This document shows positions 3,786 to 32,232 of a DNA stretch of 64,000 nucleotides, in pieces. Under the pieces are notes generated by a model, which saw only the letters and a program-made list of their open reading frames with translations, did no database searches and was not told the origin of the DNA. The position numbers and the translations under genes are program-made. Numbering within the stretch: the stretch's first letter is position 1; each line of letters opens with the position of its first letter. The stretch is from Mycobacterium barrassiae. Its GTDB lineage: Bacteria > Actinomycetota > Actinomycetes > Mycobacteriales > Mycobacteriaceae. The stretch spans positions 1 to 64,000 of the forward strand of contig NZ_JACKUK010000036.1 in the NCBI RefSeq assembly GCF_025822765.1, read 5' to 3'.

Positions 3786-4184
3786 CTACCGAGAATCCCG
3801 GAACCGCTGGGCCAGCGACTCGATGTGATCCATCAGGGTCTGCAGGGCCGCGGCGGGATTCAGTTCCAGCGCCTCGGTCTCCTCCTCGTAGATCAACACG
3901 TGCCCGGCAGGAAAGAAGTAGGCCTCTCCGCCGGCAGCCACCTCGTCGGGCCAGTCCGAGTCAGGAAACCGGCACCGGATTCGACCGGTGAACACGTACC
4001 CGTAGTGCGGTACGGGGCATACACCGCCGGGTAATCCTTGATACACCGCGGTGTGATCACCAGGCCCGGTGGTGGTGTATCCGACTTCCATGTCGCCCCA
4101 CTGGGCGGACCGAAATCCGCTGCCGCACAAGGGCCATCGACCGCCACCGCCGACGGGTAGGTCGGCTGGTCTACTTACCGGCAT
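3786..4184 (-). CDS. Small cupin-domain protein
   Basis: A 132-residue single-domain beta-barrel protein. Features typical of a cupin are a central PHYGYVFTGRIRCRF strand and AGGEAYFFPAGHVLIYEEE. Only some of the usual metal-ligand His/Glu positions can be recognised, so metal binding is uncertain. The long start has a good ribosome site (AAGGTGG a few nt upstream); an internal ATG at 4091 would give a shorter protein. It lies between the secreted protein and the terminal TetR in the P450 operon. Function unknown; either a small-molecule isomerase/oxygenase or a sensor is possible. Confidence 0.75.
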   Translation of the reverse strand: MPVSRPADLPVGGGGRWPLCGSGFRSAQWGDMEVGYTTTGPGDHTAVYQGLPGGVCPVPHYGYVFTGRIRCRFPDSDWPDEVAAGGEAYFFPAGHVLIYEEETEALELNPAAALQTLMDHIESLAQRFRDSR

Positions 4185-28369: not shown

Positions 28370-29152
28370 ATGGGCGCCCCTGTCGGACAGCTGACGCGGG
28401 GCACCACCGGTTACAACCGACTGCGCCGCAGCGATCGCTGGCTGGTGCATTCGCCACGGGTGCGCGCCGCGCTGCTGTCCACCGCCGAGCCATTGGTCAT
28501 CGACCTCGGCTACGGCGCACTGCCGGTGACCACCCTCGAGTTGGCGGAACGGCTGCGGGCGGTGCGTGGCGACGTCCGCGTCATCGGCCTCGAGATCCAT
28601 CCCGATCGGGTCGCCTCGGCGCAGGCCGCCGGCGGCGACCGCGTCGAGTTCGCGTTAGGCGGTTTCGAACTCGCCGGGAGGCGGCCGACGCTGGTTCGGG
28701 CGTTCAATGTGTTGCGGCAGTATCCGGTCGACGCGGTGGCCGAGGCGTGGTCGACCATGCAGCGTCAGTTGGCTCCCGGCGGGCTGATCATCGACGGTAC
28801 ATGCGACGAGCTCGGTCGGCTGTGCTGCTGGGTGCTACTCGACGCCGACGGTCCGCTGAGCCTCACCATGGCGTGCGACCCGTTCGCCATCGAGCGCCCG
28901 TCCGATCTGGCCGAACGGCTGCCGAAGGTGCTGATCCATCACAACGTCGAGGGCCAGCCCATCCATACGCTGCTGACGGCGGCTGACCGCGCCTGGGCCA
29001 CCGTCGCGGGCCACGGCGTCTTCGGTCCGCGGGTCCGCTGGCGCGCAATGCTGGATACACTGCGGGACAGCGGTTTTCCGGTCGATCCGCCGCGCAGGCG
29101 GATGCGTGACGGCGTCCTTACGGTGCCGTGGCCAGCCGTGGCTCCGCACTGA
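28370..29152 (+). CDS. SAM-dependent methyltransferase-like protein
   Basis: 260-residue protein with a class I SAM-binding core: VIDLGYGALPVTTLELAERL (motif I region) and VRVIGLEIHPDRVASA (acidic end of beta 2). The loop is GYGALP, not the usual GxGxG. The last 35 bp overlap the convergent symporter gene. Conserved across mycobacteria by appearance; substrate and methyl transfer are unproven. Confidence 0.75.
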   Translation: MGAPVGQLTRGTTGYNRLRRSDRWLVHSPRVRAALLSTAEPLVIDLGYGALPVTTLELAERLRAVRGDVRVIGLEIHPDRVASAQAAGGDRVEFALGGFELAGRRPTLVRAFNVLRQYPVDAVAEAWSTMQRQLAPGGLIIDGTCDELGRLCCWVLLDADGPLSLTMACDPFAIERPSDLAERLPKVLIHHNVEGQPIHTLLTAADRAWATVAGHGVFGPRVRWRAMLDTLRDSGFPVDPPRRRMRDGVLTVPWPAVAPH

Positions 29153-30656
29153 CGGGTTCCGGCTCGGACACCTCGACCGTCGCCAGCGCGTCGTCGACGT
29201 CCTCGGCCAGCCTGATGTCCAGACCCCGGATCGGCGCGGCGGGCCTCAGCAGCGCGATGACCACATAGGTGACCAACGACGCCGCGAACGCGATGAACGT
29301 CGGCCATCCGTCGAACGACGCATCGATCATCCCGTTGGGGATGTACAGGATCGTGTTCTCGAGGCCGTACATAGTCGGCGTCATCACGAACAGCACCAAG
29401 CGCACCGAAAGGCCGACCACGATCGAGGTGATGGCCGCGACGGAAGTGCCTTTGCGCCAAATCAATCCGAGGATGAACGGCACCACCAGACACGCCAGCA
29501 GCAGATCGAACGCCAACGTCAGCAGGATGCCGGTCTGCTTGACGTAGATCGCGATCAGGATCGAGACGAGCGTCATCGGGACCATCGCGATGCGTGTGGC
29601 CCGCAGCAGCGGATCCCGCTGGCCCGGAACGTGTACGCGCCGAACGCCTCCCAGGTTGCGCACCGAGACGTTCGAGATCGCCAGGATGGCACCGTTGGCG
29701 GTGCTCATGGATGCCCCGACCAGCCCGCACAACACGATGATGGTCAAGAACAGCGGCGCGTACTGATCGAGCAGGACGAACAGGATCGGCCCGTCGAGCT
29801 CCTCGGGCATGAACGCCTTCGCCGAGAGCACGACGAGACCGAACGGCACGCAGATCGCCACGACGCCGGTGGCCGCGCTGAAACAGGCACGGCGTGCGGT
29901 CTCCGGGGACTTGGCCGCGAACACGCGCTGCATGAAGTCGATGGCCACGATGTCGCCGATGCCGAGCGCGACGAGCGTCGCCCAGTTGATCACTGCACCT
30001 TGTGCGGGATCGGTCATCTGGCCCATGTCGAAGGGGCCGGTGCCCTCGGCGATCGCGATGCCGTGGGTGGTGGCCATCCAGATGAGCAGGCCGACGGCGC
30101 CGATGAGGACCAGCGCCATCTGGATGATCGCGGTGTATGCGTCGGCGATCAGGCCGCCGGTGCCGGTGTAGGCCACCGCGAGCACCGCGATGATGACGGT
30201 GCCCAGCCAGTACGGGGCGCCGAGGAAGTAGTTGAAGAGGAACCCGCCCGCCACCAGGTTGCCGGCCACCAGGATGCAGAACCCCACGATCAGCATCACC
30301 GACGCGGCGACCTCGACGACGCGACCGAAACGCAGTCGGTAGTAGTCGGGGAAGGACGTCAGGCCCATCCGGTTCATCGGTTTGGCGAAGAACAGACCGG
30401 TGAAGAACAGACACAACGCGAGACCCAGCGGCAAGCAGGCGCCCGCCCAGAACCCGAACTCCGCCGCGAGGTCGGTGTTGCCGAGCGTGGCGTTGGTGTC
30501 GACGGCCGAACCCATCAGCGCGCCGCCGACCAGGATGAGCGGCAGGGTGCGACCACCGACCAGGAAGTTGGCGCTGTCGCCTGCGATTCGCTTGGATGCC
30601 AGGAAGCCGACCAGCACGACGAGGGCGATGCTGATTCCTACGCCGAGAAGAATCAT
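29118..30656 (-). CDS. Sodium:solute symporter family permease, candidate guanidine importer
   Basis: 512-residue SSS-family integral membrane protein with about 13 hydrophobic segments; N-terminal LVGGRTLPLILVGGALMGSAVDTNATLGN matches the sodium-site region. It is preceded by a guanidine-I riboswitch (30684-30783), so the most probable substrate is guanidinium or a related guanidine compound. ATG start with AGGAG seven nt upstream; part of that SD sits in a small hairpin (30666-30678). Divergent from a ureohydrolase with its own guanidine-III riboswitch. SSS members carry many solutes, so the substrate is inference from the aptamer. Confidence 0.9.
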   Translation of the reverse strand: MILLGVGISIALVVLVGFLASKRIAGDSANFLVGGRTLPLILVGGALMGSAVDTNATLGNTDLAAEFGFWAGACLPLGLALCLFFTGLFFAKPMNRMGLTSFPDYYRLRFGRVVEVAASVMLIVGFCILVAGNLVAGGFLFNYFLGAPYWLGTVIIAVLAVAYTGTGGLIADAYTAIIQMALVLIGAVGLLIWMATTHGIAIAEGTGPFDMGQMTDPAQGAVINWATLVALGIGDIVAIDFMQRVFAAKSPETARRACFSAATGVVAICVPFGLVVLSAKAFMPEELDGPILFVLLDQYAPLFLTIIVLCGLVGASMSTANGAILAISNVSVRNLGGVRRVHVPGQRDPLLRATRIAMVPMTLVSILIAIYVKQTGILLTLAFDLLLACLVVPFILGLIWRKGTSVAAITSIVVGLSVRLVLFVMTPTMYGLENTILYIPNGMIDASFDGWPTFIAFAASLVTYVVIALLRPAAPIRGLDIRLAEDVDDALATVEVSEPEPVSAEPRLATAP

Positions 30657-30665
30657 GGGGAGTCT

Positions 30666-30678
30666 CCTAGAAACTAGG
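30666..30678 (-). promoter_or_regulatory. SD-masking hairpin between guanidine-I aptamer and symporter start
   Basis: On the transcript CCTAG-TTT-CTAGG can pair, hiding the first part of the AGGAG ribosome site (30664-30668). The aptamer's 5' strand also contains CCTAGGG, giving a possible alternative partner. This is a candidate translational expression platform; the switching is inferred. Confidence 0.45.
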
Positions 30679-30683
30679 TTGGA

Positions 30684-30783
30684 GCCTCCCGGGCTTTTAT
30701 CCCGCCGTGGAACGGCCGGCGTCGCTGCGCAACCGCTTGCGTCTCTCGGACCAGACCCGGCGAGCCGGCGGAACCCTAGGCGC
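30684..30783 (-). ncRNA. Guanidine-I riboswitch (ykkC/yxkD class)
   Basis: Read on the minus strand, three consensus blocks occur in order: CTAGGGTTCCG (30769-30779), GGTCCGAGAGA (30742-30752) and the 3' block ACGGCGGGATAAAAGCCC with GGGAGG after it (ending at 30685). These are the invariant segments of the class I guanidine aptamer, including the ligand-pocket 3' block. It sits about 28 nt upstream of the symporter start and in its sense. In the family, free guanidine turns expression on. Confidence 0.95.
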
Positions 30784-31029
30784 GCCTCACACCACTGAAT
30801 GTGAGTCGTCGATCAGACAAACTCGGATCCGTTACGGCGGTTCGCGCGTCGTGTTAACGGTGCGTTGCAGTTCCTTCACCGTCGAATCTGACGTTCTGCA
30901 CGTATTTCCTGGATTTCGCCTGCCCCACCTCAAATTCGGCGGTGGCGCATTGCAGTTACCCCCTGCCGGGTTGGCGAATCGCTGCCAAGATATGGACTCA
31001 GGAGCCGGCCACGCTTTCCGGCGGGCTCC

Positions 31030-31072
31030 CCGGACGAGGTGCGTCGTACCCGGCTTGCGACAAGACGGCGCG
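31030..31072 (+). ncRNA. Guanidine-III riboswitch (ykkC-III class)
   Basis: The plus strand reads CCGGACGAGGTGCGTCGTAC, then CCGGC, then GACAAGACGGCGC, which is the ykkC-III consensus. The CCGG copies at 31030-31033 and 31051-31053 region form P1; GCGTCGT (31041-31047) can pair with ACGGCGC (31065-31071, one G-U) to give the pseudoknot. The SD GAGGAG (31074-31079) begins two nt after the pseudoknot strand and the GTG start is at 31084, so translational control is likely: guanidine should favour or stabilise the fold next to the SD. Confidence 0.93.
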
Positions 31073-31083
31073 TGAGGAGCCCC

Positions 31084-32232
31084 GTGACCGAGCAGAACGA
31101 CAACCAACCACTCAACGCCGAAGGCGCATGGGCCCAGCAGGCCGAGGCGCGACTGTCGGAACGCCGCGAACGCGAGGAGATCGAGCGCAGCCTGGCCTAT
31201 GGGCTCGAGGCGGCGCCGACGATCAACGACCGCCGGATCTCGACGTTCGTGCGCGGTGAGCTGCCCCATTTCGCCGGTGAACGCGGAACCTTCCTGAAAT
31301 GTCCCTTCGTCGAGGACGTGAACCAGGTCGACGACGCCGAGGTGGCGATCTTCGGGGTGCCGCTGGACGCAGGGGCGACCTACCGGCCGGGCACCCGCTT
31401 CGGCCCGCAGGGCATCCGGCGCTCCACCAACCTGTTCGGCACCTACAACTACGAGTCGGGCGTGGACCTGCGCGAGCAGCTCAACATGGTCGACATCGGC
31501 GACGTGTTCACCATTCCGGGCAACCTGGAGAAGTCCTTCGACCAGATCAGCCAGGCCATGGCACACGTCGTGTCCAAAGGCGTCATGCCGGTGGTACTCG
31601 GCGGCGACCACTCGATCGGTTTCCCGACCATTCGCGGTATGACGCCGTATCTGGACGGCAACGTCGGCATCATCCACTTCGACCGCCACGTCGACACCCA
31701 GGAGTCCGACCTCGACGAGCGCATGCACACCACCCCGTGGTTCCACGCCACCAACATCAAGAACGCGCCTGCGACCAACCTGGTGCAGATCGGGATCGGC
31801 GGCTGGCAGGCGCCCCGCGCAGGCGTCAAGGTCGGTAGGGAACGCCAATCGACGGTGATCACGGTCGGCGACGTCGAGCGGGTGGGTGTCGAGAAGATCG
31901 CCGAGATGGCCCTCGAGATCGCATGGAAGGACGCCAAGGCGGTGTACCTGTCGTTCGACATCGACGTCATCGACGCCGGCTTCGTGCCGGGTACCGGCTG
32001 GCCCGAGCCCGGTGGTCTGCTCCCCCGCGAGGCGCTGAACCTGGTCAAGATGGTGTCCGAACCCGGCTTGGCCGGTATCGAGGTCGTCGAGTGCTCACCG
32101 CCGTACGACTGGGCGGAGCAGACGGCGCTGCTCAGCTCGCGGGTGATCCTCGACAGCCTGGCCGCGCAGGTGCGGTCCGGAAAGCTCGGCAACAAGGCCG
32201 CGTCGCTCGACCGTCACGCGTGGGGGCCGTAG
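31084..32232 (+). CDS. Ureohydrolase (agmatinase family), candidate guanidine hydrolase
   Basis: 382-residue binuclear metal hydrolase. Metal ligands are visible: GGDHS (His176), D200-R-H202-V-D204 and SFDID (D292, D294), followed by VPGTGWPEPGG. The first Asp motif reads DRHVD, not the usual DAHxD, and there is a roughly 80-residue N-terminal extension compared with short agmatinases, as in the cyanobacterial guanidine hydrolase group. GTG start with GAGGAG; a longer frame would run into the aptamer. The guanidine-III riboswitch directly upstream makes guanidine to urea plus ammonia the favoured reaction. Urease and nickel-chaperone genes are not in the window. Confidence 0.88.
   Translation: MTEQNDNQPLNAEGAWAQQAEARLSERREREEIERSLAYGLEAAPTINDRRISTFVRGELPHFAGERGTFLKCPFVEDVNQVDDAEVAIFGVPLDAGATYRPGTRFGPQGIRRSTNLFGTYNYESGVDLREQLNMVDIGDVFTIPGNLEKSFDQISQAMAHVVSKGVMPVVLGGDHSIGFPTIRGMTPYLDGNVGIIHFDRHVDTQESDLDERMHTTPWFHATNIKNAPATNLVQIGIGGWQAPRAGVKVGRERQSTVITVGDVERVGVEKIAEMALEIAWKDAKAVYLSFDIDVIDAGFVPGTGWPEPGGLLPREALNLVKMVSEPGLAGIEVVECSPPYDWAEQTALLSSRVILDSLAAQVRSGKLGNKAASLDRHAWGP

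Follow-up and report, generated by a model that had tools for sequence, protein, structure and literature searches.

Two guanidine aptamers in one intergenic region

Why would a single intergenic region of Mycobacterium barrassiae carry two unrelated RNA sensors of guanidine, one in front of each of two divergent genes? Such an arrangement had been proposed from the letters of a 64,000-nt stretch of DNA (the window) by an earlier, sequence-only reading, which also suggested a covariance search. A scan of the whole window with the Rfam 15 models (cmscan) revealed exactly two matches above gathering, both significant and full-length. The Guanidine-I (ykkC subtype 1) aptamer, RF00442, occupies positions 30684-30790 of the minus strand (75.8 bits vs. 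a cut-off of 63, E 1.1e-11, model positions 1-107), while the Guanidine-III (ykkC-III) aptamer, RF01763, is located at 31008-31074 of the plus strand (57.3 bits vs. a cut-off of 36, E 3.2e-9, positions 1-67). In the host genome (5.9 Mb, 49 contigs) one match was found per class.

The conserved Guanidine-I blocks described on the minus strand before a symporter gene were confirmed, as were gene and strand; the distance to the symporter ATG is 27 nt rather than the 28 nt claimed. Guanidine-III was likewise correctly placed on the plus strand directly before a ureohydrolase gene: it ends 9 nt before the GTG start codon (31084), and the ribosome-binding site AGGAG (31075..31079, plus strand) begins at the very next base, abutting the aptamer. 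Like tandem riboswitches, the pair combines several aptamers for one ligand in one region; unlike them, it is not arranged in series on one transcript, the two aptamers being located on opposite strands and on divergent, separate RNAs. A 2022 survey reported no tandem arrangement involving any of the four guanidine classes (PMC9481103).

The rightward gene encodes a guanidinase-type ureohydrolase

The rightward gene (31084..32232, plus strand) encodes a 382-aa ureohydrolase (PF00491) with the guanidinase signature (GdmH type). The best matches among solved structures are 9fek (E 1.4e-152), the guanidinase of Nitrospira inopinata, and 7esr/7oi1 (E 1.4e-144), the Synechocystis enzyme; 222 of the 359 residues aligned with 9fek are identical. 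All ten tested guanidinase residues, drawn from the published list (T105, W313, H222 and E344 in N. inopinata, and the metal ligands; PMC11410670), are present in the sequence of the window hydrolase. Its T99, W306, H215 and E336 correspond to T105, W313, H222 and E344, respectively (9fek alignment, chain offset 2), and the six metal-binding residues are H176, D200, H202, D204, D292 and D294. Among 80 named relatives, whose loci were collected with the hydrolase as query, all 80 share T105 and the six metal ligands, H222 is conserved in 79 (N in L083), and W313 and E344 occur in all 79 covered sequences. An ordinary agmatinase was ruled out by these residues and by the score for agmatinase TIGR01230 (169.9 bits), which is below the curated cut-off of 174.3; PRK02190 gave 202.1 vs. 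302. The enzyme is predicted to cut guanidine.

A guanidine relative, e.g. methylguanidine, might instead be the natural substrate and ligand, given that Guanidine-III crystals accommodate small side chains (PMC5696562) and that a methylguanidine demethylation pathway is placed under guanidine riboswitches elsewhere (PMC12508155). We consider this quite unlikely: the window hydrolase has the Thr and Trp typical of guanidinases, the N. inopinata guanidinase is reported to produce no urea from methylguanidine (printed as "methylguanine" in that text; PMC11410670), and a Pfam analysis of eight window proteins around the module gave no dioxygenase or lyase match (one protein had no match at all).

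The leftward gene encodes a putative guanidinium importer

Sodium:solute symporter (SSF) family proteins normally take up solutes together with sodium, and none is known as a guanidine carrier. The leftward gene (29118..30656, minus strand) encodes a 512-aa member of this family (PF00474, E 5.7e-23, 81.9 bits vs. gathering 22.8), whose match to NCBIfam TIGR00813 lies under the model cut-off. Among proteins of solved structure, high-affinity choline transporters come closest in sequence (best E 1.5e-19); other near relatives in that group carry sugars, iodide and vitamins. The symporter is predicted to be a guanidinium importer. Importers linked to guanidine riboswitches are described as ABC and, by prediction, APC proteins (PMC12186494); an SSF protein in this role was not found in the open-access literature searched.

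The 198 genus genomes contain 32 symporter orthologues, one of them a fragment and the other 31 at ≥67% identity. Guanidine-I lies no more than 60 nt upstream of 30; it is missing in G152 and before the fragment, which belongs to G052. Neither guanidine class lies upstream of nine paralogues (~50% identity). In three Nonomuraea loci (L065, L078, L085; ~3940-4005) a symporter of 59-62% identity is encoded with the start of the divergent hydrolase only some 40 nt away; no riboswitch was detectable there at E up to 1, and leaderless promoters are possible for these genes.

Conservation of the divergent pair

The same set of 198 genus genomes was searched for every item. Guanidine-III was found at 119 places in 109 of them. 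Guanidine-I was found at 62 places in 59 genomes, 32 of which have a match above the cut-off. Comparison of all 62 Guanidine-I with all 119 Guanidine-III places identified 24 genomes in which both classes lie within 1 kb on opposite strands; all of these pairs are divergent, with gaps of 113-227 nt (15 at 117-119 nt), against a back-of-envelope chance expectation of about 0.001. A chance origin of either aptamer match could thus be ruled out by the single occurrence of each class in the host genome of the window and the recurrence of the divergent pair. Pairs of one class (Guanidine-I/Guanidine-I or Guanidine-III/Guanidine-III) less than 1 kb apart were not found in any of the 198 genomes.

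Hydrolase genes, counted at E 1e-100 or better, number 46 in this set, and Guanidine-III was detected upstream of 38. Those without it belong to G002, G028, G158, G183, G159, G044, G086 (56% identity) and G059 (a fragment); G159 and G044 have altered Guanidine-III-like sequences. Where both genes are on one contig, both riboswitches are present in 24 of 26 genomes. The pair, called unusual by the sequence-only reading, is therefore real, but no one-off.

In 21 of the 80 named loci both classes are above gathering and divergent, which together with the 24 genus genomes rules out a local oddity of one genome. Four loci (L037, L043, L048, L097) have a divergent Guanidine-I only, two (L103, L104) have Guanidine-I upstream on the hydrolase's own strand, 25 have Guanidine-III alone before the hydrolase, and one (L077) has Guanidine-II downstream of it; for 26, no guanidine class was above gathering within the stretch scanned. 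In the Streptomyces locus L083 (3727-3792, minus strand) Guanidine-III points away from the hydrolase; the ORF that it leads into is similar, in its C-terminal half, to PatB-type C-S lyases.

In a tree built from 86 hydrolases, one supported set of 31 (98/94) comprises all 21 rows that have the aptamer pair and the symporter (the window among them), five with altered Guanidine-III, and L080, L033, L036, L041 and L047. Within this set L033 and L036 have Guanidine-III only, and L041 and L047 have neither class. This distribution fits, but does not prove, a single origin followed by losses; L080 is on a long branch and its placement is unsure.

When the matches listed for 374 genomes of the class were inspected by eye, the pair was seen in seven genomes (G000, G011, G079, G122, G132, G141, G528), every one a member of the genus to which the window belongs; the listed matches showed no such pair in any other genus. 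One pair beyond the genus was identified among the named loci, in L080, a Pseudonocardiales metagenome-assembled genome. In another family of the class (L112, L113, L114) Guanidine-I itself precedes the hydrolase (61-62% identity); for L112 and L113 (hydrolase 62% identical) no Guanidine-III was above gathering in the 4.5 kb fetched.

Linked loss of genes and riboswitches

In six genomes examined that lack one of the two genes, the matching riboswitch is missing too. M. chlorophenolicum and M. chubuense (L033, L036) keep the hydrolase and Guanidine-III, while the symporter and Guanidine-I are absent at the locus. Conversely, G056, G083, G165 and G167 keep the symporter and Guanidine-I; the neighbouring Guanidine-III is absent and the hydrolase was not found genome-wide. 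This linked loss of each gene with its own riboswitch rules out that both aptamers serve one gene.

The linkage is imperfect, as seen in the four genomes without hydrolase, in G152 and G144, and in 8 of the 46 hydrolases. The symporter orthologue of G152 (L138; 86% identity) is adjoined by neither Guanidine-I nor a hydrolase. G144 (L143) carries a Guanidine-I match with a guanidine-type pocket that, at 61.9 bits, falls slightly short of the cut-off; no symporter or hydrolase is present within the 2.3 kb examined, and the next sizeable ORF, luciferase-like, starts ~360 nt downstream.

It might be supposed that one aptamer is decayed or vestigial and that only one gene is under guanidine control. 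Relatives do carry altered Guanidine-III (an insertion in L037, L043, L048 and L121, core changes in L097), and G152 has kept the symporter and lost Guanidine-I. For the window we regard this as very unlikely, since both of its aptamers are full-length and above gathering, its Guanidine-III ligand contacts are intact, and both aptamers are retained in 24 of 198 genomes.

In L080 the gene behind Guanidine-I encodes an APC-family permease (PF13520; best NCBIfam TIGR03428, 614 bits vs. a cut-off of 740), and the sequence separating its aptamers can still be aligned with that of the mycobacteria. For comammox, an APC permease has been proposed to import guanidine (PMC11410670). In two loci of a slow-grower clade, L061 (urease alpha and gamma subunits) and L070 (beta subunit), the Guanidine-III/hydrolase unit is divergent from urease genes, as checked at the protein level; two further loci of that clade, L067 and L098, gave a ureB RNA match only. 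The 5_ureB_sRNA match of L061 is antisense inside the urease alpha gene.

These loci bear on a detoxification system, in which the leftward gene would export guanidine and the hydrolase destroy it. Small multidrug resistance (SMR) proteins are a known guanidine exporter family, and elsewhere in the genus Guanidine-III precedes SMR genes: PF00893 was identified in six of seven scanned downstream genes (L021, L128, L129, L133, L134 and L137; not L135), an eighth scanned ORF, in L018, being on the other strand. Such a role is nevertheless unlikely for the pair, considering the uptake usual for SSF proteins, the APC-family permease filling the Guanidine-I slot in L080 and the adjoining urease genes in L061 and L070. 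Moreover, G113 has the pair plus a separate Guanidine-III/SMR unit, so an exporter is already supplied there.

Predicted control of the symporter

The window's Guanidine-I aptamer contains the conserved blocks plus the A of GGUCCGAGAG, putatively position A46 of the crystal structure; 17 of 20 fetched sub-threshold matches have GGUCCGAGCG instead. The pocket adenosine A46 separates guanidine binders from ykkC subtypes 2a and 2b (PMC6031431).

Guanidine-I riboswitches usually act via a transcription terminator (PMC12186494). In the window the 27-nt linker between the aptamer and the ATG has no T run longer than three, so it does not look like an intrinsic terminator. Instead, an anti-Shine-Dalgarno hairpin is predicted at 30658..30690 on the minus strand (MFE fold, -14.2 kcal/mol), in which the GGGAG at the aptamer 3′ end (30686-30690) pairs with CUCCC by the ATG; CUCC pairs with the ribosome-binding site GGAG (30664-30667). 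Twelve of 500 linker shuffles folded equally well. A matching hairpin, read off predicted MFE structures, occurs in 24 of 26 folded sequences with differing linker lengths, the exceptions being L097 and L080 (for the latter the start coordinate used was unsuitable), and only 12 of 25 individually tested hairpins reached p 0.05 or better vs. 500 shuffles. Folding of whole leaders, which by MFE ignores the pseudoknot, showed neither leader to be more stable than its shuffled versions (z 0.04 and 0.34).

According to this model, Guanidine-I appears to work by hiding the symporter ribosome-binding site, not by its usual transcriptional mechanism. When guanidine is lacking, the 3′ GGGAG would enter the hairpin and bury the site; with guanidine bound, the aptamer would retain GGGAG, leaving the site free and the symporter translated, i.e. 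a translational ON switch.

Predicted control of the guanidinase

Read side by side, the Guanidine-III core is near to the crystal RNA of T. fusca, and C6, G7 and G17, the ligand contacts in that structure (PMC5696562), are kept. In the predicted fold the P1 helix probably starts near 31001. Guanidine-III is described as an ON switch acting by site exposure and RNA stabilisation (PMC12186494), which the abutting ribosome-binding site fits: guanidine binding to the pseudoknot would expose the site and probably stabilise the mRNA. A conserved competing anti-Shine-Dalgarno pairing was not found across 24 sequences, among which the window's own 7-bp pairing is not general.

Several relatives differ in this leader. 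In L037, L043, L048 and L121 the hydrolase directly follows a Guanidine-III variant whose core is interrupted by an insertion; RF01763 misses it even at E up to 1 (three tested: L037, L043, L048). L097 has a Guanidine-III-like sequence with core changes. In L061, L070, L067 and L098 a stretch of 113-116 nt with a strong hairpin separates the aptamer from the predicted start, and the expression platform therefore differs.

The gap between the aptamers

A conserved element, GnAAC-n6-TTAAC, was distinguished between the aptamers (30853..30868, minus strand) as a possible binding site of the nitrogen regulator GlnR. Its core, AAC-n8-AAC, is present in 22 of 26 intergenic sequences and in none of 25 Guanidine-III-only loci (159 nt upstream of Guanidine-III searched); in the 64-kb window it occurs seven times, and the extended form once. 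The GlnR motif of M. smegmatis is AC-n9-AC (PMC3662644). The element fits this motif, which is degenerate, and has one mismatch to the longer GlnR consensus. In L033 and L036 it is gone together with the symporter, so we hypothesize that it probably serves the symporter promoter.

The gap measures 217 nt in the window and 227 nt in G039, whereas most of the paired genomes (15 of 24) have 117-119 nt; an insertion of about 100 nt appears to lie near the rightward promoter (window 30880-30990).

Other ykkC-like RNAs of the genus

ykkC-like RNAs with GGUCCGAGCG were found in L142 and in 17 of 20 fetched sub-threshold Guanidine-I matches (L145-L148, L150-L162). The eight downstream genes scanned comprise five TauE/SafE and three EamA genes. 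These RNAs fit the known orphan subtype 2d (PMC7266159).

Five further ykkC-like RNAs, in L144, L149, L120 (2405-2502), L139 and L140 (G194, G007, G172, G051 and G162, respectively), have a changed pocket, GGACCGAGRG and ACACC(A/T)GGGGACAAAAGCC, and lack the ACGG block; the RNAs of G051 and G162 are still above the Guanidine-I cut-off. A creatininase-family gene is located downstream in L120, L139, L140 and L149, followed by a glutamine-synthetase-like gene in the two tested (L140, L149). A creatininase-type association is absent among the ykkC associations taken from a review (PMC7266159), and these RNAs are possibly a further orphan variant of ykkC.

A proposed guanidine-inducible nitrogen-scavenging module

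We interpret the locus, with a probability of about 85%, as a module of two divergent genes that is induced by guanidine and scavenges nitrogen. Transcription would start in opposite directions from two promoters between the aptamers, giving a leftward RNA that opens with Guanidine-I and a rightward RNA that opens with the Guanidine-III pseudoknot. The symporter would import guanidinium, the guanidinase would split guanidine into ammonia and urea, and the remaining nitrogen would be freed from urea by a urease whose genes lie elsewhere. What the sequences show directly are the two aptamers, the gene families, the active-site residues, the conservation and the linked loss; ligand binding, the direction of the switches, the substrate and direction of the transporter, and the promoters are all inferred from them.

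This interpretation is based on the covariance matches, the conserved pair with each class before its own gene, the guanidinase residues, the linked loss, the hairpin and a urease alpha gene in the genome, as well as on the APC permease in the Guanidine-I slot of L080 and the hydrolase beside urease genes in L061 and L070. The tie of both genes to guanidine, suggested by the sequence-only reading, is reinforced by the conservation, the linked loss and the signature residues. The urease alpha and HypA genes are both located away from the module, and we count the separate position of HypA against the interpretation. The same holds for the imperfect linkage, for the other substrates carried by the symporter's nearest solved relatives, for the modest number of hairpins (12 of 25) that stand out from shuffles, and for the failure to find a conserved anti-Shine-Dalgarno pairing at Guanidine-III.

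A more elaborate two-sensor circuit is possible, if doubtful. Here the unrelated aptamers would be kept either to avoid an inverted repeat or to provide different thresholds, combined with GlnR coupling to nitrogen starvation, a translational Guanidine-I and the first SSF sodium-coupled guanidinium importer. Two copies of one aptamer at a distance of ~118 bp would make up a long inverted repeat, which is unstable, and the 198 genomes yielded no same-class pair within 1 kb; alternatively, two classes might set different response thresholds for import and breakdown.

Relation to known guanidine systems

Each part of the proposed nitrogen-scavenging module is of a known kind. The Guanidine-I aptamer resembles its class in the full-length match and conserved blocks, and differs in the predicted anti-Shine-Dalgarno hairpin in place of the usual terminator (PMC12186494). 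Guanidine-III has a core like the T. fusca RNA and is situated directly at the ribosome-binding site; here it precedes a guanidinase-type hydrolase, elsewhere in the genus SMR genes.

Riboswitch-linked transporters and guanidinases with the same signature residues are described for Synechocystis (GdmH, ABC importer) and N. inopinata (APC permease) (PMC11410670, PMC12186494). Those loci are single operons with one Guanidine-I, whereas the genes studied here are divergent, with two classes and an SSF transporter. That two unrelated guanidine aptamers occur at one locus, as the sequence-only reading stated, is true here but not without precedent: guanidine carboxylase operons of enterobacteria combine classes I and II in one assimilation locus, with the importer under class I (PMC12186494). 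In these operons class II is downstream of class I, the pathway is that of the carboxylase and the importer is of the ABC type, in contrast to the divergent genes, hydrolase and SSF transporter of the window. An extra class II guanidine riboswitch is described inside a Vreelandella operon (PMC12508155). The divergent pairing of Guanidine-I with Guanidine-III and the symporter as importer were not found described in the subset of the open-access literature searched.

Through the proposed module, a symporter family that is so far uncharacterised and the agmatinase-like hydrolases of mycobacteria are tied to free guanidine, which has only lately been recognised as a source of nitrogen. The module also offers a natural case of one ligand, two structurally unrelated RNAs and two divergent genes, in which genomes with a single loss are built-in controls, and it makes directly testable why bacteria retain several classes of guanidine sensor.
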